The position numbers and the translations under genes were made by a program. Shown in pieces: positions 4,935 through 49,467 of a DNA stretch of 64,000 nt. The stretch's first letter is position 1. Every line of letters begins with the position of its first letter. A model generated the notes under the pieces. The model ran no database searches, was not told the DNA's origin, and saw nothing but the letters and a program-made list of their open reading frames with translations. The stretch comes from Paragonimus westermani (taxonomy: Eukaryota > Platyhelminthes > Trematoda > Plagiorchiida > Troglotrematidae), in assembly GCA_008508345.1 (NCBI GenBank), contig QNGE01000404.1, positions 51,225 through 115,224 on the forward strand, written 5' to 3'.

Positions 4935-5150
4935 AGCAGCTCATATATATGGACATACATGTATTAAAATATAGAGGGACGTCTATAAATAATGTACACA
5001 TCTATGAACATGAAATTCTATATCATCATGTATATATATAAGTATACACATAAGTATATATAGGTATGTGGACTTGTGGATACATATATCTTCATAAGTC
5101 CATATACCCATATATACTTATGGATATAGACATACGTATACAGTTAGCAC
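4935..5150. repeat. AT-rich TATA-type low-complexity tract
   Basis: Alternating purine-pyrimidine sequence rich in atatata, gtatac and catatg words, degenerate rather than a clean array. It contains several short self-complementary segments. No coding potential is visible. Confidence 0.7.
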
Positions 5151-19059: not shown

Positions 19060-20820
19060 CCAGAAACCGAGAGGTAGGAGGTACATAAATGGATGTGGTG
19101 TTGGTTCTGTGACGCCCGTGACCGTGGAGGAAGGGTCCGATTGAGACAGCCCAGGACAAAAGCTGAAGTAAGTATCGAACAAAGCGTGAAGTTCGTTTTC
19201 AACTGCATTGAGTTATGCACACTGTAAGTCCCACAAAATTGTCCCAACACTTGGTATGAGGACAAGTTTAGGGCCAATAATACGTTTGGTAACAATACGT
19301 TTCATTGTTCACGTGGATGTGCATCCCCGTTTTCGTGAGCTCCATTTGGCTCATAGTGTTTGCAAGTTTTTCAAAGCCATTTGTTGAGTACATACCTGTC
19401 TTCTTCTGCAGGAAACTCAATCTCTTCTGGATTGATGAAGAGCGCACGAGAAAATTCCAGAGTGTTTTTGCATCCAGTGCGAAATGCATGGCTTCCTAGA
19501 AATTCATGGCGAATCGCATCGCTCAATGTGAAAATGGGAATGGGTTACGTGGTATCGGGTTAATTTAGAGGCGAAGTCGCTGGTTCCAAATTCCTTTGAC
19601 AGAGGGATCACGTGGTTTACAGTGAAATCCGCCTTGGGTTAATTTAAAGATGGATTAGGACGCGAGGAATGGACTGATCGAAAAATTACTACGTTACACG
19701 TAGTAGGGATACGCTAGGGCTTTTCTCCCAAATCCCTAACAAATCCACAAATGATCATCCGAGTGGTTCATTAGACGGTATCGGGGGTTTTACGTAACTC
19801 ACCCCTAGCTGTGTTGAAAGGTTACTCCCGTCGTATGACAAGGGTTTTCTTCCATCCACAAATAAGTGGAAACCTGCGATAGGGCGGGAGTTACGACGAG
19901 TAAAACGTCCAATTTATGTGTATGAAAAGCAGCACACTTTACGGAACCTAACATCATCGTATCCAGTTAGTGTTCAAAAGCTCCACTACATATAAATCAC
20001 TTTCCTACTGCGAATCAGTATGACGATGAACAACGAGAACGTGTTCTGGATAATATTCACGGAGAAATATCTGAACTTCCGGAAATACCTTGAGGACTTC
20101 GAAAAATTTTGCCGCAGACATTTTGCGACAGATGGTATAGTTGGTCCTTTGGAAACAGCACTTATAATGCGAACGATTATAAGTGGCTTAAGGAAATTCG
20201 AAAGGGAGCCGAGGGAGCTTACTATAAGAAATATGGCATTCACATCGGTAAACAATGAGGTTTGCTAGATATGCTATCTAAAGCGGGATCCCGTGGATTC
20301 TGGCAAGGAAAACGTTAACTGGGTCCAGTGCTCCCGCTGCTTGTGTTGGCACCATCATTCGTGTGCTGGCTACCGGCAATCTGACATTGGATTCACTTGC
20401 GTGGACCGCGAGACAAGTAAGCAGCCCACGTGAAGCTCGCAACTGCACGCTCAACAACAACACGGTAACAGTCTCGTTGTCCTTTTCAGGACAAACAGGA
20501 CTGACCCCACGACCCATTTCGGGGCCTTCTACAAAGTGATTTTCAACAAAAACCATGCTCACTTATTGTTAACATGCGTACGATCATTCACCGTCGACAG
20601 ATGATGGGTCCATTGGGTCTTATTTCAGTGGCAGTCTCCTGAGTCCTTAACCGATTGGGCAAGTAAAACCACCCAATGCGCTATTCAGTGCACCTACAAA
20701 TGTAAGCACACAGCGACATATATATAGTTATAAACACCGGCTAAACCACATGTATGTATACACACATATGCATATATATACATATGTTTAAGAACAAACA
20801 TACGTGCATAAATATATATA
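19060..20820. other. No recognised gene; more short-motif repeats
   Basis: Translated frames (19047-19489 minus, 19305-19563 plus, 20020-20268 plus, 20278-20562 minus) show no family motif. The words GGGTTAATTTA (near 19556 and 19638) and AGGGATACG (near 19705) resemble the 18.3-kb motif cluster. TACTACGT/ACGTAGTA (19687-19705) forms an 8-bp stem with a 3-nt loop. An AT-rich tract with TATA/ACATA words occupies about 20695-20825. Confidence 0.4.
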
Positions 20821-20824
20821 GATA

Positions 20825-21030
20825 TTTTGAATTTGACCATCACTCACACGGTTGCCTCATGATTGGAATGGCCGGAGTTCAAATCCCGGCCGTGACAAAA
20901 ACGTGCACTACTGACGAGCTCTAATGAGAGCAAAACTCAAGTCTGGTGCTTCTATTCGAAAGAGGCTGGCCGTCAATTCTGTCTAAATGCGGAGGTTGCG
21001 ACCAAATGTGAGTGATGGTTCAATTTAAAG
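20825..21030 (+). repeat. Inverted-repeat element carrying a hammerhead ribozyme, copy 1
   Basis: The outer ends are inverted: ACCATCACTCACA at 20836-20848 against TGTGAGTGATGGT at 21008-21020. Both ends are flanked by TA (20823-20824 and 21031-21032). The left inner arm carries a tRNA-like T-arm with a perfect 6-bp stem (20870-20875 with 20886-20891) and a B box-like GGAGTTCAAATCC (20874-20886). The centre holds a hammerhead fold. Homology with copy 2 (49043-49248) covers the ribozyme, the GAAAGAGGCTGG segment after it and both outer arms. It also continues about 20-25 nt beyond the right arm (CCAAATCC...ACTCATCAG), so the true repeat unit is a little longer. Confidence 0.85.
20905..20949 (+). 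ncRNA. Hammerhead ribozyme (type I), core-mutated
   Basis: Stem I pairs 20905-20910 (GCACUA) with 20944-20949 (UGGUGC), six pairs including one G-U. The conserved CUGACGA box (CUGANGA) is 20911-20917. Stem II is a perfect 5-bp helix, 20918-20922 with 20927-20931, closed by AAUG. The conserved GAAA box reads AAAA at 20932-20935, so the essential G is substituted. Stem III is A-U and C-G closed by UCAA (20937-20940), followed by the cleavage-site C at 20943. Loss of the box G predicts greatly reduced or no cleavage. Confidence 0.85.
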
Positions 21031-21356
21031 TACACCAAATCCCAGATCACTCATCAGTAATATATAAATAAGTTGTAGCCCTTGACTCAATACGCGAGTA
21101 CTTCCATGGTATAATAAGACGATTGATAGGAAATCGGGTTCTAGTTCTTGATATAATTAACACGGCAAATCTCGGCTCTGAAAATACGCGGCAGTCACTG
21201 GTAACTGCACCCAACACAGGCCAAAAGACTGGTGAACGAAAGCAACTATAATCACCTCTGAAACGTGTGCGACAAGGGTAAAATTGCATGGAATTTATAG
21301 GGTAATAGTGACCTACCAATATTCTCGACATTGGCGAGCGTTTCTGAAAGGTTAAG

Positions 21357-21714
21357 TGTAGAAGGATGACGAATGTGTACGCAGGGCAGCGATCGCAGGC
21401 AATCCCGACGCAATCCGAAACCAGAGAAAAGACGTAGGGAACAATCACAACCAGCGAATTGGGAATACAAAGACGGGGCGGCGATCCGCACAACGCCAAT
21501 GGCGACATGAGAATCAAAGTCGCAATCACAACATATTTTTTAATCCTTCCAAACAAGTAAGTCCAGTGGGATCGAATATCACAGTTTTATGGACGTTCAT
21601 GTCGTGTGGAACACGCCGAGTAATACGTAGGTGGGCGACCTGAAATAGATAACAAGGGAGAGATCATCAACGGAAAGTTTAAATCGCATGCGCAACAGTT
21701 TCCATATTGTTACA
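21357..21714 (-). repeat. 3' LTR of the Gypsy element
   Basis: Direct repeat of 25835-26192. From about 21378 to 21714 the two copies differ at only about five positions. The outermost 20 or so bases (21357-21377) differ much more. The inner end in element orientation is TGTAAC next to the polypurine tract. ORFs inside the LTR are duplicated in both copies and are not genes. Confidence 0.92.
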
Positions 21715-21730
21715 CTGCTCCCCTCTTAAT
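21715..21730 (-). other. Polypurine tract
   Basis: On the minus strand the bases immediately upstream of the 3' LTR read AAGAGGGGAGCAG, an almost pure purine run. This is the primer site for plus-strand DNA synthesis in LTR elements. Confidence 0.85.
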
Positions 21731-21742
21731 CAGGCAGTGTCC

Positions 21743-22300
21743 TCAGTGCCTCGGTACCGCCAATATTGCTGCAAAACCTCGGGCTGGTATTTCGACTGTT
21801 TGCTCTACGATCGGAACGTTGCCAGTTGGTACTGGCAGGGGCCGCATCTGGGCTCCTTCCGGCGTTTGGGCTTGCCTCAACTCATTGTAATAAACCATAG
21901 GTACACCCGCTGTTGGGTTCGTCATGTCACGAATTAAATATACAATAGGTGATCGCACGTGCACAGTTACGAACGGACCTAGCCACCGGCGATGGAATTT
22001 GTGCCCGGCCCCCAACGGTGGTTTTGGTCTGAACAACCAGACATGATCCCCGACGCGGTAAACTGGTCCGTTTTCTGTACGGTCACAACAGCTTTTCTGA
22101 TGGTGTTGTGACTTTGGCTGATGCTGGGCGGCAATTTTATAGGAGACTCTCAAACGTTCGCCCAGCTCCTTAACATAATGTGGTAAACCTATGCATTCGG
22201 CTGGCGCCAGCGGTGTTAGTACTTCAATTGGCAGGCGCGGTTCATGTCCTAGGGTTAGTAGTGAAGGTGTGTACCCTGTACTCGAATGGACGGCTGCCAT
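21743..22300 (-). pseudogene. Gypsy integrase C-terminal part
   Basis: A 185-residue open frame continues the integrase after a one-frame shift at about 22300. It begins with VHSSTGYTPSLLTLGHEPRL, the end of the integrase core. It then has the chromodomain-like GPY/F region: VYRVGDHVWLFRP, HRRWLGPFVTVHV and a VVYLIRD-like strand. A proline-rich tail ends at 21743. In working elements it follows in frame with the catalytic core. It lies directly before the polypurine tract, as expected for the pol 3' end. Confidence 0.88.
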
Positions 22301-22301
22301 A

Positions 22302-23610
22302 TCAGGTTAAGAGACACTGTGGCAGGATTTCTTCCCGACGATCTGACAGGTGTCGTTCAATAAAGACACGTAGAATTGTCATTACAGTACGATTGGTTCG
22401 TTCGACCAAGCTGTTACTCTGAGGGTGGTAAGGAGTTGTTCGGGTTTTGTGTATGCTTAACACACGACATACTTCTTCTAGAAGACGACTTCCAAACGCA
22501 GCGCCTTGGTCGGAGTGCAGCCCAATGTGTGTACCGAGACGAGTGACCCATTCGTTTACGAACAACGATGTTATTGTAGAAGCCTGTTGGTTTGGCATCG
22601 GAAAGGCTTCACACCATTTAGTAAAATAGTCGACAATCACAACAATATATTTATTTCCCCTTCTCGAAGTCGGTAGTGGTCCCATCACATTAACTTCCAC
22701 ACGGTGGTTGGGGCCAACTGTTGCAACCGTTTGAAGCGGGACCCTGTGAGCTACAGTGGGGGATTTGGTTTGCGCACAGAAGTTACAGTTGACACATTTG
22801 CGAACAACATCGTCATGTAGCGTCAGCCACCAAAAGCGCTGTCGGACAGCCGCTCCAGTCCTTCGCTGACCCGCATGTCCAAGTTCTACATGCATCTCTC
22901 GGACGACCTTCGACACCTTGCCAGATGGGACGATTAGTCTGTGTGTTCGTTTGGCCCTATCAAATAAATGCAATACGCCATCGTTAACTCGCAAAGTCGC
23001 CCACTGTGACCATAAGCAGCGCTCTTCCGGGGATCTGCCCTCTAATTCGCGACCAGTCGGTTTTGGGTTTCCAATAAGTTGCCGACGGCAGATGGTAGAA
23101 ATGTGCGGATCACCCAGTTGACAGTGTGCCCACGTAGCCCCAACTAATGGTGTGAATAACGTAGCGTTAACAGTTTCCGTAGGAAAGTGGGACAACGCAT
23201 CAGCATTCGCGTGACGGCTGCCCGGGCGATAGATACAGTCGAAGTCGTAATCTTGCAAATATTCCAACCAACGTGCTACTCGATCCTTCGGCTTTCGAAA
23301 GTTGCGAAGCCATTGTAGCACTCGATGGTCCGTTCGAACTTTGACGGATTTCCCGAGTAAGTAAGGGCGGAAGTGTTTTAGGAAATACACTGAAGCTAAC
23401 ATTTCACGCCGCATAGTGCAATAACGCATTTCCCGCTTGTCGAGCCGACAACTTGCATAGGCAATCACGAATTCCCCATTGGCCGACTGTTGGAACAGTA
23501 CAGCACCGATAGCTAGGTCACTGGCGTCAGTGCCTATTATGAGGGGACGGGCAGACGGCGAGAAATCGGGGGATGCGAGAATAAGAGGGGAGCTCAGCTG
23601 ATCTTTAAGT
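22302..23610 (-). pseudogene. Gypsy RNase H and integrase core
   Basis: The RNase H begins near 23560 with GTDASDLAIGAVLFQ (catalytic Asp). The long open frame 22302-23468 continues with REMLASV (Glu), VRTDHRVLQWL (Asp) and HANADALS (Asp). The integrase follows: an HHCC zinc finger (HVELGH then CVNCNFC), the core region with HRVEVNVMGPLP, SDQGAAF, and LVERTNRTV. In Gypsy integrases the first catalytic residue is an Asp in the position that here reads Asn (VEVNVMGP). The second Asp and the Glu are retained. The frame ends at a stop at 22302 and resumes shifted in 21743-22300. RNase H looks catalytically complete; integrase does not. Confidence 0.92.
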
Positions 23611-23637
23611 GTTGAACGCTGCGTGATATTCAGCAGA

Positions 23638-24330
23638 TCATACGGATTTCTTGTCTTTCTCCGTAAGTTGACGCAGCAGGAATGCTATCTCCGCAAAATA
23701 TGGAACAAACTTCCGGTAATACGGAGCCAGTCCCATAAAACTGCATACTCCGCTTACCGATTGTGGTACTGGCCAATCAGCAACTTGTCTGACTTTTGTG
23801 CCATCGGTTTTTACTCCTGCAAGTGTGATTAGATGGCCCAAGAATGATACTTCTTGCTTTAAGAGCACGTATTTTGTAGGCTTCAGTTTCAGGCGTGCCA
23901 TTCGGAGAAGTTCGAATACATTTTCCAGTCTGGAATTATGCTCTTCTATTGTGGGGGCGTGAAGAATAATGTCGTCGAGATAGATTAAACATGGGCTTGG
24001 AACTAAATTTTGAAACACTGTCTGCATTATTTACTGAAAAATAACAGGCGCGTTAGCTAAGCCGAACGGCCTTGTTTCAAATTCATACAACACGGATGGA
24101 ATGAGTAATGCCGTCTTTTGACGATCTGTGGGGGCGGACTTCAACCTGCCGGTACCTCGAAGCTAGATCAAGCGTGGAGAACCATTTCACGCCAAGCAAC
24201 GCATCGAGTGTGATGTCTATGCGTGACAGAGGAAATGAATCTCTTTTCGTTATAGAATTCAGACGTCTGTAGTCAACACACAACCGTAAGCTTCCGTCCT
24301 TCTTTTTAAACAACACGATGGGGGTGCCCA
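23638..24330 (-). pseudogene. Gypsy reverse transcriptase
   Basis: Two pieces. Piece 24083-24316 begins with [19 protein letters not shown] and contains [15 protein letters not shown] (motif A Asp). Piece 23638-24027 has the catalytic box YLDDIILHA, then FLGHLITLAGVKTD and YYRKFVPYFAEIA, which lead to RNase H. A frame change lies between about 24080 and 24030, where the PFGLxNAPxxFQ block is ([16 protein letters not shown] on the minus strand). The main catalytic residues are intact; the reading frame is not. Confidence 0.92.
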
Positions 24331-24721
24331 GGGGGAAGTCGATGGGCGTATAACTCTCTTGTTAAGCATGTCTTAAATCATGGTATTCACTCGTGACTGA
24401 TAGTGAATAAGGATTCTTCTGGCGGGTTGTCGGAGAGGGTGGTGGTCACTTGTATCGATTTCGTGTTGTACAAGTCGAGTCCGCCCAAGTTCCTCACTAC
24501 CTCACTGGAACACATCGGGGAAGCTACGTAGAAGGCTTGCTAGTGTGAGTCTTTCAGTCTGGGGCGGAGCATTCTCAGTTAATATTGGTTGTATCAAAAT
24601 CGATTCCAGTTCGTTTAGGTTGTTGGCAGCTTCTAGTACGTTTACTGTTTGAGGCTTTCTTTCGTGCATTCTTAGCATTATAACAAAAACGGATTATCTG
24701 TGAGGATGGGTCGACCTTATC

Positions 24722-25069
24722 TCAGTACCGCCGTAGAAAATCCATTCCTAAAATCGCGCTCCATAGCAGATGGCTACTTACTGCAAACTGATGTCGAGTG
24801 GTTAAGTTAGCCAACTGTACAGTAGCCACTACTTGCGAGCCCGTCTGTAAGATGGTGCCGTTTTCCGTTAATATATGATGGCGGTATTCAGACCAGAATA
24901 TTTTACAATGTGATTGGGCCACCACGGTCAAGTTTAAAATGGAACACGAGGCACCAGTATCAATCAAAAAGCAGATAGCCTCGTTATCCAATCTACCGTT
25001 CACACTTAGTGGCTTATCTACGTCAGCGTTGGCGCGACAGATAACAGAAGGTATAGATGCATGGGACAA
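24722..25069 (-). pseudogene. Gypsy aspartic protease
   Basis: Open frame with FLIDTGASCSIL, the retropepsin active-site triad DTG followed by A. It also has a downstream SAILGMDFLRRY, the second conserved (I)LGxDFL block. It lies between the zinc-knuckle segment and RT, as expected. Nothing in this piece itself is broken. The protease matures the polyprotein in working elements. Confidence 0.92.
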
Positions 25070-25079
25070 AATTGAACTA

Positions 25080-25620
25080 CCGCGTTTTACTCGTCCTGCT
25101 ACCAGAGGTGGAGTGTGTTCACACTTCTGCGCGCGGGAGCCAAACCTTTTACAGTAGACGCAATTACTCGCCGGGGAACTTGGTTAGGGGAAGTTTCAGT
25201 TGGCTAAACACATGGGTCCTTTTACTGAGGAGGTGTCGCGCATCGACCCCCGCACCGCCCCAAGTGCCCGTACTTTTCAACTGCTTTTATTAACGACGAC
25301 GCCGGTTTGTAAAGGAATTTTCCACTTAATTCTTGATTAGATAGCCCCAGACAGAAACGGTCACGAATCTGACAATCTCTTTCCGTCGGGAATGATTGTG
25401 AAGACGCTTTCAGAACTAGTTCCCGCAGGTCAAGAAGGAACGAGTTCACCAATTCCGACGGTTGCTGGCGCCTGTCGTGGAGCCTTTTGCAATACACAGG
25501 CGTTAATTTCGTGCGCCCAAAGAGTGCTTATACGGTTTTCCATATAACATCGGGTGGTGAATCTGAAGCCATACCAGAAGCACAAATTGCTTCACAGCTG
25601 CATCACCCAAAAAACTAAGG
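25080..25620 (-). pseudogene. Gypsy gag C-terminal part with degenerate zinc knuckle
   Basis: Open frame 25222-25497 reads YCKRLHDRRQQPSELVNSFL then LDLRELVLKAS and RDRFCLGLSNQEL. This is the typical gag (retrotransposon gag, PF03732-like) end with its 'F..GL....' block. About 80 bases further on, in another frame, is CVYCKRFGSRAQKC. This is a CCHC knuckle that has kept its three cysteines and lost its His. gag would form the particle. The N-terminal part of gag (25620-25810) is poorly recognisable. Confidence 0.75.
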
Positions 25621-25814
25621 ATATAAAAGCTGCGAAGCTTGTAATTCACCGCTAATGAGTAAATTTTGACTTCAAATGCCCAGTCATCGAAGTCATCATC
25701 GGGATTGCAAAAGGGGGTTGACCTGATGATGGTTTAACCCCGCAGCACAACTCGTTCATTTCGATGGTATAGTCCGTCGATAACGGGGGTGAAGTGAACT
25801 CCGGTTTCGTATTC

Positions 25815-25832
25815 ATCCCACCTCTGTCACCA
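25815..25832 (-). other. Candidate primer-binding site
   Basis: Minus strand reads TGGTGACAGAGGTGGGAT, starting TGG as required to pair with a tRNA CCA end. It sits a few bases inside the 5' LTR. The pairing tRNA is not established; the form is compatible with a leucine-type tRNA end. Confidence 0.5.
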
Positions 25833-25834
25833 TT

Positions 25835-26192
25835 TTTAACAGGACGACAAAAGAATACGCAGGGCAGCAATCGCAGGCAATCCCGACGCAATCCGAAACC
25901 AGAGAAAAGACGTAGGGAACAATCACAACCAGCGAATTGGGAATACAAAGACGGGGCGGCGATCCGCACAACGCCAATGGCGACATGAGAATCAAAGTCG
26001 CAATCACAACATATTTTTTAATCCTTCCAAACAAGTAAGTCCAGTGGGATCGAATATCACAGTTTTATGGACGTTCATGTCGTGTGGAACACGCCGAGTA
26101 ATACGTAGGTGGGTGATCTGAAATAGATAACAAGGGAGAGATCATCAACGGAAAGTTTAAATCGCATGCGCAACAGTTTCTACATTGTTACA
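25835..26192 (-). repeat. 5' LTR of the Gypsy element
   Basis: Direct repeat of 21357-21714 (about five differences over the 336-bp core). On the minus strand it starts TGTAAC at 26192. The inner end near 25835-25855 is poorly matched with the other copy. Confidence 0.9.
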
Positions 26193-40665: not shown

Positions 40666-41558
40666 CTGCGTGGGATAGAAGATATTGAATTGGTTCTTTC
40701 AGTTTTCAGAAACTTCAAAATTTATTTTATGCAAACCTCACAGATAAGAAGCTAGAAGGATATTCAAAACACGTATACTTTAACGTCCGTACATAGTGGA
40801 CTGCATGAGCAGTTTAAACGTATTTCAGAAGGTCCGAATTTTATGATATAACCACCTTAAGGAGGCTGGTGGAACCCACTGCTGTTGATCTTATCAGTGG
40901 TGTGGAAAGGTGACTAAAGACGCCTATAACTGAATGTGAGTAAGATAACGGATCCTCTCAGCTTTAGCGCTGTAACGGTGGAGTGGATGTTTCGACAACA
41001 CTCCATCATAGATACTGTGTGTGTTGAGTGTCTCGAAGGTTGAAGGTAGAGAGGAAACAAAGACAATTTCAGCACGAAGACGAGAATTCCCACACGATGC
41101 AAGCTAACTGAGAGCATTTCGTAAAGTTTGGGGTCAATATAAGGGGTGGTTGACTTCCATTTATGACTTCTAACGCAACAGTCACTCCAGGCAATAAATG
41201 TATAAGGACTCTGCAACTCAAGCGGGTCAAACGTTAACCCACCGTCGGTAAATTCGTACCATTTGCTTTATAAAACGTTGAGTGTATCCTGTTGCAGATG
41301 GTAACGCCAGTGTCCATTATGTTGGATTGCCGCGGCAACTGCTTTAGTTGATCAGTGAAAACAGCAGCGCTTTGTTGTTCATCGCTACCTTGAATATTTA
41401 CTATCTAAGCCGTGAGGCTTTCAGCCCTTGCTAAACATTTAGTGCAAAATGGAAGACAGGCACGCACTGTCGTATGAATAGGCGCAGCAAGTAAAGCGGG
41501 ATGTTTAGAAATGCAGTTCTAACATAGGCACAGTAGACAAAATCTACCACCCAAAGAG

Positions 41559-42086
41559 GTGGTCACTGTAGAGAAAAAGAGAGTTTACATAGAGCTACCT
41601 TCTAGGGGTGATTATGTCATGCAACAAACAGCACAGCAATTGGGAAATTCAATTAAGCGAACGTTCAATGCAGCTGAACTCCGTATAATAGCTCGGACTC
41701 AGAAACTACCAGTTCCTTCGATCGAAGGAAATCAACCTATCGGTGTCACTTCACATTGTGTTCATCAATTTGTATGTAACTGCAGAGAAAGTTGATAAGA
41801 CAGAACCGGGAGATGCTTGAGCTCCAGAATGAAGGAACATCTACCAAAATGGGTACAGAAGTGGGTGTTACCGGAGAATGGCGATGTTGCTGAAACGCGT
41901 AAACAGCCAGTTTCCTCAGTCGCTAGACACGTCTTGACCACCGGTCAAGCTACCGATCCATCTTGTGCATTCAAAATCTTGTTGCGCCATTCCAACCCGA
42001 GATTCTTACGGTTTGCTGAAGCAGTTGCAATTAATCGACTCAAACCAGTTATCTGTGTTCAGACAATGGAAATGTCATTTACGTGA
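41559..42086 (+). pseudogene. Penelope-like element 3' fragment with GIY-YIG endonuclease
   Basis: Two adjacent open frames. The first (41559-41795) reads KRTFNAAELRIIARTQKLPV and then GVTSHCVHQFVCNCRES, matching the linker and first strands of the GIY-YIG domain of Penelope-like elements. Two stops fall where the 'YIGRT' strand should be (about 41794-41812, TTGATAAG). The second frame (41817-42086) resumes with CLSSRMKEHLPKWVQKW and later SSVARHVLTTGQATDPSCAF and LRFAEAVAINRLKP, the helical part with the catalytic Glu (FAEA). Penelope elements pair an RT with this nuclease. The RT is not seen upstream. Confidence 0.82.
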
Positions 42087-46401: not shown

Positions 46402-49042
46402 CTGAATATGGGGAATGAACAAGAGCTTTAACACCAATAAGTGTAGATACTAAAATTAAAATGAATCAAAACAGATGTTCATTCCACTTTACTTATGGTG
46501 TTCATTCTCATTCCTCTTATTTTTCTTGACTTTCCGCTCTGCTTCTCCCTCATGCAGTTCAACCTCTTCCTTTGGCCTCCTCATTATCATTTTCATCACG
46601 GATTTTATTGACCGCAAAACGGCTAATCGATATTGGCTGATTAAAGTGTGGCTTTTGTGTTGAATGAAGCAAATCTGATGAGATGTTTCTGTACCATGTT
46701 TCTGTTTATCTAAAGAAGTTGAACATTGATATTGAGATGTTTAAGGGCCACACCTTAATTATAAGATAAATATGGTCCAACTTTCCTAAAAAGAAGTAGC
46801 ATTTAGAGGTAACTGGCTATTTCTGCTCGGACTGGATGTAAATCCTAACGTCATGCTTCATCGGACTGCATGACATGCATTTTGTGAATCCTGATCGAAA
46901 TGTGTTATTAGTGAAAAAAAGGTTACTTTTTATGTTTAATATGTGACGTTCTGTACGATACCTCCAGATAGCACGTTAGAAGTGCTGTTCAATGTTTGCA
47001 CTACCAGTGAAATAAGATCACATCATTGGACAAAAATGGGGTTAGCCGATTCCCAAGTCGAGTTTATCTGGCATGTTAGGTATATGGTCGTCTTCTTCCG
47101 CCCGCCCCATCTTTCCACAAGTGTGTTGGCATTTCAAAAGCGACGTTTAGTAAATCTCCATCAGCTTTATGTGACCTTTCCATTTGGTCCCGACTGATCA
47201 GACACTTTATTCAGAAATCATGTGGACAAAAACAGTACTACTACTGTCAGTTTATCCAGGAAAGGAGGATACGTCTGTTCTGTCATAATACCCATGATAA
47301 ATGTCGAAGGTAATTGCATTGAATGTTTACACGTGCTGTTGATTAGCCCTACGACAACTTCTGCATTTCCGGTACACTTTTTCAAAAGCTCCAAACATTC
47401 GTCTATTTTATCATCAGAAAACTACTCTATTGTACCCTGTGAGTAACCAATTCTCAGTTTCCTCATCCACCTTCCGTCAGACTTTCTACAGCAACGATAT
47501 GCGAATACCAATAGGTATGTGCATATTTCTCTAATATTCAATCTCACCAACCCGAAAAACATCATGAATCAATTAACTAGAGCTTGAAAATAAAAATGTA
47601 CCAAACTATAAAGGTCTAATCGGCACATATGACGTGTCTACCACGTCTGGCAATAAACACAAAGTTACTTGAAATCTGGAAAACAAAAGATGAGATGGAA
47701 AAACTGAGGTACACGGCTAACAAGAAATTTGTAGTTGCAGCTTTTGTCAGCTATTGTTTAGGTTCAACAAAATCCTGCCATCCGCTTTCAGGACAAAATT
47801 CGGACCATGGCGCATTTTTATCTCTAAACGTCGATCTGACCAGCGCTCATGTAAGGTGTTTTTTGCTAATGGTCTGCGTTTTTAGAAAAGCTGGATTCTG
47901 AACGCCTATACACATCTTAACCGTGTTTGGCGATCCCTAACAGCCAGGATATCAAACAGATTCGATAATCGTTTTTCCATACCATAGCTGATCGATCAGA
48001 CAGTAAGAATGTCTGAGATGTGCGGATACACGTTCCTGTTACGTCTTGAGTGCAGATTTCCATAAAAATACAGGCTTCCATTGAAGAGCATTTTATACAC
48101 ACATGAAGTGGTCAGAGAGCGAGGGCACGCATCTTTCCTAACACGGTTTCTTTGTTGCTACAATCCCCATCCAAACCTTATCTTCGTCGAGGTTATTTGC
48201 AAAAATTCGGTTAGTCAGCCGTTGCACTGATGTTTTAATTGTCACGTAAACTATGAACTATGCTGCCTTTTTCCATAACAAATGACCGACGGTACAGCAA
48301 CAACAACCAAACTGACGTGCCTTTAGACATTCTGCGAATAATAGTACTCAACAAAAGCAAACCACTAGGACAGAAGCCATACCAAACAGCTTCGCTTTTC
48401 GAAGTGGTACAGTTTCCGAGATCTCGTAGGACTCATGAGACTGAATCGAAATCTATGATAGTTTGCCACATGATCCAGCTTAGTTGAAAGAAAGCCTTAT
48501 AAAATATCATGGTTCTATTGGGTACAGGAGAAATCGTTCTATCCACCATAAGTTGAAGCTTGGCCTCTCTTGACCACCTCAATATTCTGGCAATGGAGTT
48601 TATTAGCCGATTCTGCTCTACTTTCGTACGTCTAAAGAACAAACACGGGTAAGTCTAACGTGTGAGCACTTTCACACGCAACTTTTCTGACTGATTTGGA
48701 TCAACAAACGTCGGAACGTAACGGAGCAATATGGACAAAATATGTGAACCAGGCAAAACAGATACTGTGAGCTCTTCTTTTCAATTGGGCCGTTCGAATT
48801 TGATTATGTAACTGTGGAATCTGCTATTGTGACTGACGCTCAATTGGAAAACATACAATGGTCTCATTCCCTCGTCATTGTTTATATTTCTGTCTATGTA
48901 TGCACTCTGAACGTTTCGATAATCTGATTTTCACAGACCTAAGCGTTTGCTGTTTGACAAAATATGTGTAAAAAACGTTCACGAATAAACATATGATGCA
49001 GTGCAAGTGAATTTATGGTCAGTTTCTTGTCACCTTGTGTTA

Positions 49043-49248
49043 TTTTCAAATTGACCATCACTCACATTTGATCTCAGTCTTCACATTCAGATAGACTTTC
49101 CAGCCAACCGTGGTAATGATATGCACTACTGACGAGCTGTAATGAGAGCGAAACTCGAGTCTAGTGCTTCTTTTCGAAAGAGGCTGGCTGGAAGGTCTAT
49201 CTGAGTGTGAAGATTGCGATCAAATGTGAGTGATGGTCAATTTGAAAA
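49043..49248 (+). repeat. Inverted-repeat element carrying a hammerhead ribozyme, copy 2
   Basis: Outer arms are near-perfect inverted repeats. The left arm begins TTTTCAAATTGACCATCACT and continues CACATTTGATC (49043-49073). The right arm is the exact complement (49218-49248). Inner arms (GTCTTCACATTCAGATAGAC against GTCTATCTGAGTGTGAAGAT) extend the pairing with a few mismatches to over 50 bp. The element is flanked by TA on both sides (49041-49042, 49249-49250). The ribozyme lies at the apex of this long hairpin. It lies in an intron of the PDZRN-like gene, opposite to the gene's strand. Confidence 0.9.
49123..49167 (+). ncRNA. Hammerhead ribozyme (type I), intact core
   Basis: Stem I pairs 49123-49128 (GCACUA) with 49162-49167 (UAGUGC), six Watson-Crick pairs. 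The CUGACGA box is 49129-49135 and the GAAA box is 49150-49153. Stem II is 49136-49140 with 49145-49149, closed by AAUG, with a G-G mismatch at the fourth pair (49139/49146). Stem III is A-U and C-G (49153-49154 with 49159-49160), closed by UCGA. Cleavage is predicted after C at 49161. The very short stem III is typical of the minimal hammerheads found in Penelope-like elements and retrozymes, which may act as dimers. Confidence 0.9.
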
Positions 49249-49467
49249 TAAACCAAATCCATGACTACTCATCAGCAACCTTATGTTACTCGGAAAAAGC
49301 AATTTAGTGGGCTTTATGATCCGGTAATTGGGGACCTCACAGTGAAAGGGTTATTACCTGACGGTGGATCATCAAGGTTATGTTAATCAGCAGCTGACCT
49401 ACGACACACTGCACTTTACACTAAGCAATCGAAGAGTAGCCACGGGACGGCTAACACCACGCCTTAC

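Follow-up and report, generated by a model that had tools for sequence, protein, structure and literature searches.

A ribozyme-tipped hairpin in the lung fluke Paragonimus westermani as a probable two-sided insertion of an abundant hammerhead retroposon

The closest described counterparts of the lung-fluke repeat studied here are the SMalpha and Sjalpha elements and the metazoan non-LTR retrozymes, for which we draw on excerpts of the papers cited. Like this repeat, SMalpha and Sjalpha are dispersed in trematode genomes and carry a type I hammerhead together with Pol III boxes A and B (PMC2576457; PMC8490949). The likeness to SMalpha is one of description; the unit of 431 nt is longer than the SMalpha-like W36.2_W001, which has 335 bp, and a two-sided inverted insertion, which is frequent in the lung-fluke repeat, goes unmentioned for SMalpha in the excerpts of those two papers. 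Hammerheads have also been described in the transcribed repeats W25.2, W26.2 and W27.2 of Schistosoma mansoni, some with cleavage tested, but these repeats are W-chromosome satellite DNA with some autosomal copies (PMC8490949), unlike the lung-fluke repeat.

Metazoan non-LTR retrozymes have units of 150–450 bp with type I hammerheads (PMC7229834), a range into which a unit of 431 nt fits. They usually form tandem repeats (PMC7229834) and have been described without promoters (PMC7761336, in the excerpts available), whereas the lung-fluke copies examined are dispersed, span less than 1.3 units and have promoter-like boxes; the frequent inverted insertions set the lung-fluke repeat further apart. 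Retrozyme duplications, when present, are longer than 4 bp (Cervera and de la Pena 2020, PMC7229834). Tandem cDNA copied from circular RNA has been proposed for these elements, and LINEs or Penelope-like elements (PLEs) acting on a circular template have been proposed for animal retrozymes (PMC7229834); a further paper states that retrozyme repeats carry no motif by which a LINE helper could be told from a PLE helper (PMC7761336). Minimal hammerheads have been reported in PLEs themselves (PMC7761336). None of the papers searched mentions both Paragonimus and the hammerhead ribozyme.

The window, i.e., the whole stretch of 64,000 nt of contig QNGE01000404.1 that was analysed, holds two copies of the repeat, referred to as the window copy and copy B. 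The window copy carries a predicted type I hammerhead with a conserved core, three stems and an open stem I at 49123..49167 of the forward strand, where cmscan aligned Hammerhead_1 (RF00163) with all core bases present (31.5 bits, E 5.6e-6 in a 501-base scan). Model and core pattern together place stem I at 49123-49128/49162-49167, CTGACGA at 49129-49135, stem II at 49136-49138/49147-49149 and GAAA at 49150-49153, with a short stem III within 49123-49167 and predicted cleavage after C49161. The score falls 2.5 bits short of the Rfam gathering score of 34, which is why the site was not listed in the gathering-score scan, and in a scan of the whole window at E ≤ 10 it appeared only as Hammerhead_HH9 (27.3 bits, E 0.013). 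The core pattern matches once in the window against 0.39 expected from shuffles, and because at least one match occurred in 25 of 100 shuffles, the pattern alone is weak evidence. Stronger evidence for the predicted hammerhead comes from the family: the gathering score was reached by 14 of the 20 family loci given to Rfam (of 60), with the locus of the window copy below it, the strict core is kept in 44 of 62 ribozyme readings (both strands, copy B included, poorly aligned readings left out), and 39 of the 49 loci having a reading hold at least one intact hammerhead. The type I hammerhead with an intact core that had been recognised in the first-pass annotation is upheld, and the ribozyme may be active.

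The window copy spans 235 bp (49043-49277), with limits set by the flanking repeats and by homology to copy B, which in a self-comparison of the window extends ~28 nt past the right arm. At these limits lie the two halves of an 11-bp target-site duplication, ACCTTGTGTTA at 49032..49042 and ACCTTATGTTA at 49278..49288, matching at 10 of 11 positions. Of the 63,100 window positions compared at the same spacing, 2 give a match of 10/11 or better; none of the 5,481 positions lying up to 3 kb from each of the two window copies does so, the copies themselves excluded. Aligned by BLAST to the family unit (U, 431 nt, taken from locus L014), the left arm (49043..49109, reverse strand) runs from unit position 404 down to 338 at 93% identity, and a forward segment (49107..49275, forward strand) runs from unit ~262 to 431, also at 93%, and contains the end of a tRNA-like region, the hammerhead, the right arm and a 27-nt tail ending CATCAG. 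The arms form an inverted repeat of 75 nt with 91% complementarity; over 65 nt from 49043 there are 60 Watson-Crick pairs, 3 G-U pairs and 2 mismatches, and the hairpin fold stands at z -17 relative to shuffles. The hammerhead is absent from the free fold of this hairpin, and forcing it costs 4.5 kcal/mol.

The first-pass annotation had taken this locus for a MITE-like hairpin of 206 bp with arms of ~50 bp, TA flanks and the hammerhead at its apex. The apical position of the ribozyme, i.e., of the RF00163 match between the two arms, agrees with our reading, and so does the inverted repeat as such, but its arms are longer than was given, 63 of 65 positions forming standard pairs. The limits were drawn too narrowly, as shown by the homology with copy B beyond the right arm, and the TA is the end of the 11-bp duplication around 49043-49277. 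A TA-flanked, MITE-like DNA transposon carrying the ribozyme would explain both the long inverted arms and the TA adjoining each of them; it is nevertheless highly improbable, since homology runs beyond the right arm and leaves the 3' tail outside the inverted repeat, the 11-bp duplication marks the actual ends of the element, many copies are forward only, neither left ends nor inner junctions are constant, and a long inverted repeat is not a trait of the family. The MITE was rejected on the element limits and duplications, terminal inverted repeats with a TA duplication not being found.

Copy B, found by the same self-comparison, also spans 235 bp (20825-21059) and lies between ATATATAGATA (20814..20824) and ATATATAAATA (21060..21070), an 11-bp duplication with one difference that is AT-rich and so weaker. 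A reverse-oriented segment (20825..20848, reverse strand; unit 404 down to ~381 by self-comparison) is followed by a forward segment (20846..21057, forward strand; unit 220 to 431 by self-comparison and alignment to the unit), within which lie a B-box-like motif at 20876-20886 and a hammerhead at about 20905-20949, both on the forward strand (HH9 24.6 bits, E 0.096). This hammerhead is probably inactive because AAAA replaces GAAA, the G of which is said to be essential (PMC2576457, in excerpt). As the left arm of copy B comprises just 24 bases, followed by inner sequence unlike that of the window copy, a long inverted repeat is not the form of the family. Copy B is directly adjoined by a Gypsy-type element on the reverse strand (about 21047-26121), in which near-identical ORFs at 21252-21539 and 25652-26017 are LTR-like in appearance. 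Its integrase ORF (22302-23684) is 97% identical, along 86% of its length, to a protein of Paragonimus westermani, which marks the genome as that of a lung fluke. AT-rich stretches beside copy B (20737-20825) and at 5030-5146 gave weak matches to microRNA models, which were taken as low-complexity noise.

When the 823-Mb assembly was searched with the window copy, 3,429 candidate places came up; 40 of these were scored and 30 extracted. A 61-base query spanning the inner junction yielded 129 candidates, again with 40 scored and 30 extracted. Once four loci that repeat or overlap others were dropped (L031, L032, L033 and L054), 56 loci were dissected against U, a set that is query-biased towards the window copy. 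The earlier suggestion of a non-autonomous element is borne out, the element being mobile and having many relatives by these numbers, and the case it had considered of a sequence with no other genomic copies is contradicted by the dissected loci. The unit starts TAATCT and carries motifs at 206 (TGGCGCAGTGG, A box) and 250 (AGTTCAAATCC, B box) upstream of the type I hammerhead, with CTGACGA at 285 and the cleavage C at 317, and its tail of 27 nt (positions 405-431) ends CATCAG. By comparison with the box consensus, we take the motifs at U206 and U250 to be Pol III A and B boxes; since ARAGORN found no tRNA in 8 of 8 loci and the Rfam tRNA model was not listed for L014 1200-1680, a tRNA identity was rejected and the claim is limited to Pol III-like 'boxes'.

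Outside the main copies, about 325 kb of sequence contained eighteen clusters of the repeat, both window copies counted, or ~1 per 18 kb, which by rough extrapolation suggests tens of thousands genome-wide. From its sequence the family reads as an abundant dispersed retroposon, i.e., a retrozyme or SMalpha-like SINE with a 431-nt unit. The circular fold of the unit is only moderately better than shuffles (z -2.8), and a viral-contig pattern scan gave 0 places.

Reverse-then-forward copies account for 34 of the 56 loci, with 21 forward only and 1 reverse only, and the 3' ends of the inverted copies point outward at both sides. Of the 22 loci whose rank came mostly from the forward part (L008-L030, L011 excepted), 6 are inverted and 16 forward, two of the latter cut off by N on the left. 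Among chance-met clusters other than the window copy, with copy B included, 5 of 17 are inverted, several of these clusters being old and short. The outer left ends of the inverted copies lie near 404 in 13 and near 431 in 11 (24/34), and right ends near 431 in 41 and near 404 in 12 of 55; because the selection of loci favoured resemblance to the window copy, these counts overstate left ends at 404 as well as ribozyme-proximal junctions. A duplication score of 7 or more was reached by 19 of the 33 inverted copies and by 6 of the 19 that are forward only, compared with ~1.3% when flanks were swapped; three further loci were set aside because N adjoins their left end. The other 14 inverted and 13 forward-only copies fell short of that score. 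With a repeat as dense as 18 clusters in about 325 kb, two of them in the window, two separate insertions in opposite orientation or a later rearrangement between copies might be thought to produce such composites, yet this is very unlikely, as a single duplication encloses the entire composite in those 19 inverted copies of 33, and in 24 of 34 the start of the reversed piece lies close to one of two fixed positions.

The flanks past 431 read YAA outward on both sides, like the next bases of the joined unit. Where copies end at 431, A stands at +2 in 34/39 and at +3 in 30/39 right ends, and at +2 in 8/10 and at +3 in 9/10 left ends; where they end at 404, A stands at +2 in 11/14 left ends and in just 3/9 right ends. 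The outward flank bases match those expected if the RNA ran on, either to the TAATCT of the following unit or to the TAAACC of the tail. Additionally, the unit joint, at which CATCAG is followed by TAATCT, is crossed in 14 of 56 loci by alignment coordinates and was seen in full in 9, with L010 diverging from the unit shortly after the joint. Thirteen segments span more than 431 unit positions, the longest 543, and as no segment reaches two units, a linear template of 1.3 units is possible.

The inner junctions bear on whether the hairpin itself is mobile, i.e., whether transcripts of an inverted copy that formed a single time spread as a ribozyme-hairpin subfamily lacking a promoter. The junctions of L001 and L006 are identical save for one substitution and those of L002, L003, L007, L034 and L051 lie a few bases away, as such a subfamily would predict. 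However, a few bases separate these junctions, the window junction was favoured by the query, the left ends differ (404 in L001 and L002, 414 in L004, just past 431 in L034), L006 and L007 hold more than one unit of reverse sequence, and the remaining inverted copies join throughout the unit, all of which makes a mobile hairpin improbable. Junction microhomology has a mean of 1.88 against 1.75 in a simulated control (Mann-Whitney p 0.050) and is at least 2 in 19 of 32 copies against 61 of 196 in the control, a signal that is at best marginal. In view of this and of the selection bias, a junction hot spot at the base of the ribozyme, which complementarity of stem I might have caused in L005, L011 and the window copy, was rejected. 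The idea that ends at the cleavage site are relics of self-cleavage was likewise rejected, just two reverse segments stopping at 318-319 (L011 and L005) and both being ambiguous because of stem I.

Elsewhere, the reverse and forward segments meet at stem I (L011), at unit ~381 and 220 (copy B) or, in L029, with a reverse segment of 177-141 followed by a forward one from 189, which resembles ordinary twin priming. In a further inverted copy, at L050 156-349, the halves meet at unit 323 and 313, beside the cleavage site, with a duplication of ~12 bp by eye. Head-to-head repeat pairs forming long palindromes were also seen, one in L027, with the reverse copy ending at ~unit 404-408, and one at about 93.0-93.5 kb of G000:C1842, known from the genome-search table only, with its reverse end likewise at ~404-408.

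Ordinary LINE twin priming inverts upstream sequence. In the lung-fluke repeat it is the 3' region that is mostly present twice, which calls for a second template or for one that is circular or tandem. Target-primed reverse transcription from both 3' ends of a staggered break on joined RNA is the simplest account. The RNA would be transcribed from the Pol III-like boxes or by read-through, and hammerheads would cut tandem transcripts, the pieces being rejoined to give a circular or tandem template for a reverse transcriptase. A Penelope-like reverse transcriptase/endonuclease would then cut the two strands of the target ~7-15 bp apart. The 3' ends exposed there, both tending to end in TTR, would pair with UAA just past 431 or alternatively with UAAA past 404 and prime cDNA inward from either side of the break, and the two cDNAs would be fused where they meet. 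In the window copy they may have met at 338, where the reverse segment breaks off, and at ~262, where the forward one begins; these positions flank the ribozyme, which hence forms the tip of a hairpin. The sequences directly show the family, its limits and duplications, the inverted structure, the two preferred ends and the joint-crossing segments. We infer two-sided priming, a circular rather than a linear tandem template and a PLE helper, and consider it probable, with good though not full confidence, that the window hairpin is a single hammerhead-retroposon insertion made by this two-sided mechanism on joined RNA. Such an insertion would account for a ribozyme hairpin that resembles a novel type of transposon. 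In the related literature, among the matches listed, 'twin priming' is not mentioned.

This insertion pattern hints at the enzyme that spreads ribozyme elements in animals, and the combination of readable scars (two preferred ends, adjoining YAA, duplications, inverted copies and joint-crossing cDNA) with dense repeats and many PLE copies may make the question of the helper answerable by counting. The window holds the C-terminal region of a decayed Penelope-like element at 41523..42086 (forward strand), recognised from its ORFs and from a relative in which RVT_1 lies upstream in frame (E 2.8e-13). Together with a YIG motif read by eye in the relative, the RVT_1 match is the reason for calling the element Penelope-like. 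Pfam gave no match for the two ORF pieces of the window and no model for the endonuclease region, for which PHROGs gave only an unnamed family (E 0.025), and a PDB sequence search with the reverse-transcriptase piece gave nothing at E ≤ 0.01. With the ORF at 41799-42086 as query, 14,727 candidate places were found in the genome, and among the 150 that were scored an open frame of more than 800 codons without internal stop was found in 15.

The PLE is a candidate helper of the repeat on the strength of the comparison given below, and we tentatively propose, at somewhat less than even confidence, that its machinery copies the lung-fluke retrozymes from joined, probably circular RNA, UAA-primed at both ends of the break. 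The same insertion route with a LINE as helper, in the manner of L1-style twin priming, could draw on the LINE-type reverse transcriptase ORFs of the window (RVT_1; the LINE label is by eye), on duplications of 7-15 bp, which are compatible with a LINE or a PLE, and on 5' inversion by twin priming, which is known for LINEs. We regard a LINE helper as rather unlikely, given that the reversed piece mostly repeats the 3' end rather than upstream sequence, that the same two end sites are used at both sides, and that the PLE of this genome has a similar layout. The PLE parallel agrees with, but does not prove, the proposal that animal retrozymes are moved by PLEs, as set out in excerpts of PMC7229834 and PMC7761336. 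If true, the PLE reading would identify the missing helper of animal retrozymes, and inverted copies with two alternative 3' ends would be a footprint common to the repeat and the PLEs of this genome.

The PLE resembles the repeat in several ways: a hammerhead-like motif lies near its 3' end, that end comes in a short and a long form, one joint between tandem units was read, and one inverted copy is flanked by a duplication. It differs in encoding a reverse transcriptase. The motif was found in 4 of 4 PLE ends read (RAGATH-1 model, 22-28 bits and E 0.04-0.96, against a gathering score of 56.3), and reads CTGATGAG...GAAA in L072, L073, L074 and L075, ~60 nt before the shorter 3' end. The 3' end is short in one case (L073) and long, by 22-30 bases, in L072 and L075, and the long tail is present in the single tandem joint read (L074). 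This resembles the 3' layout of the repeat, in which the extra tail is 27 nt; by eye, the PLE and repeat tails have no similarity. Among the 150 scored places, four head-to-tail pairs lie 2,576-2,580 bp apart by eye, and the three opposite-strand pairs less than 3 kb apart are all reverse-then-forward. The ends of the one inverted PLE pair that was examined share a 13-bp duplication, against 0 shared 13-mers in 200 shuffles.
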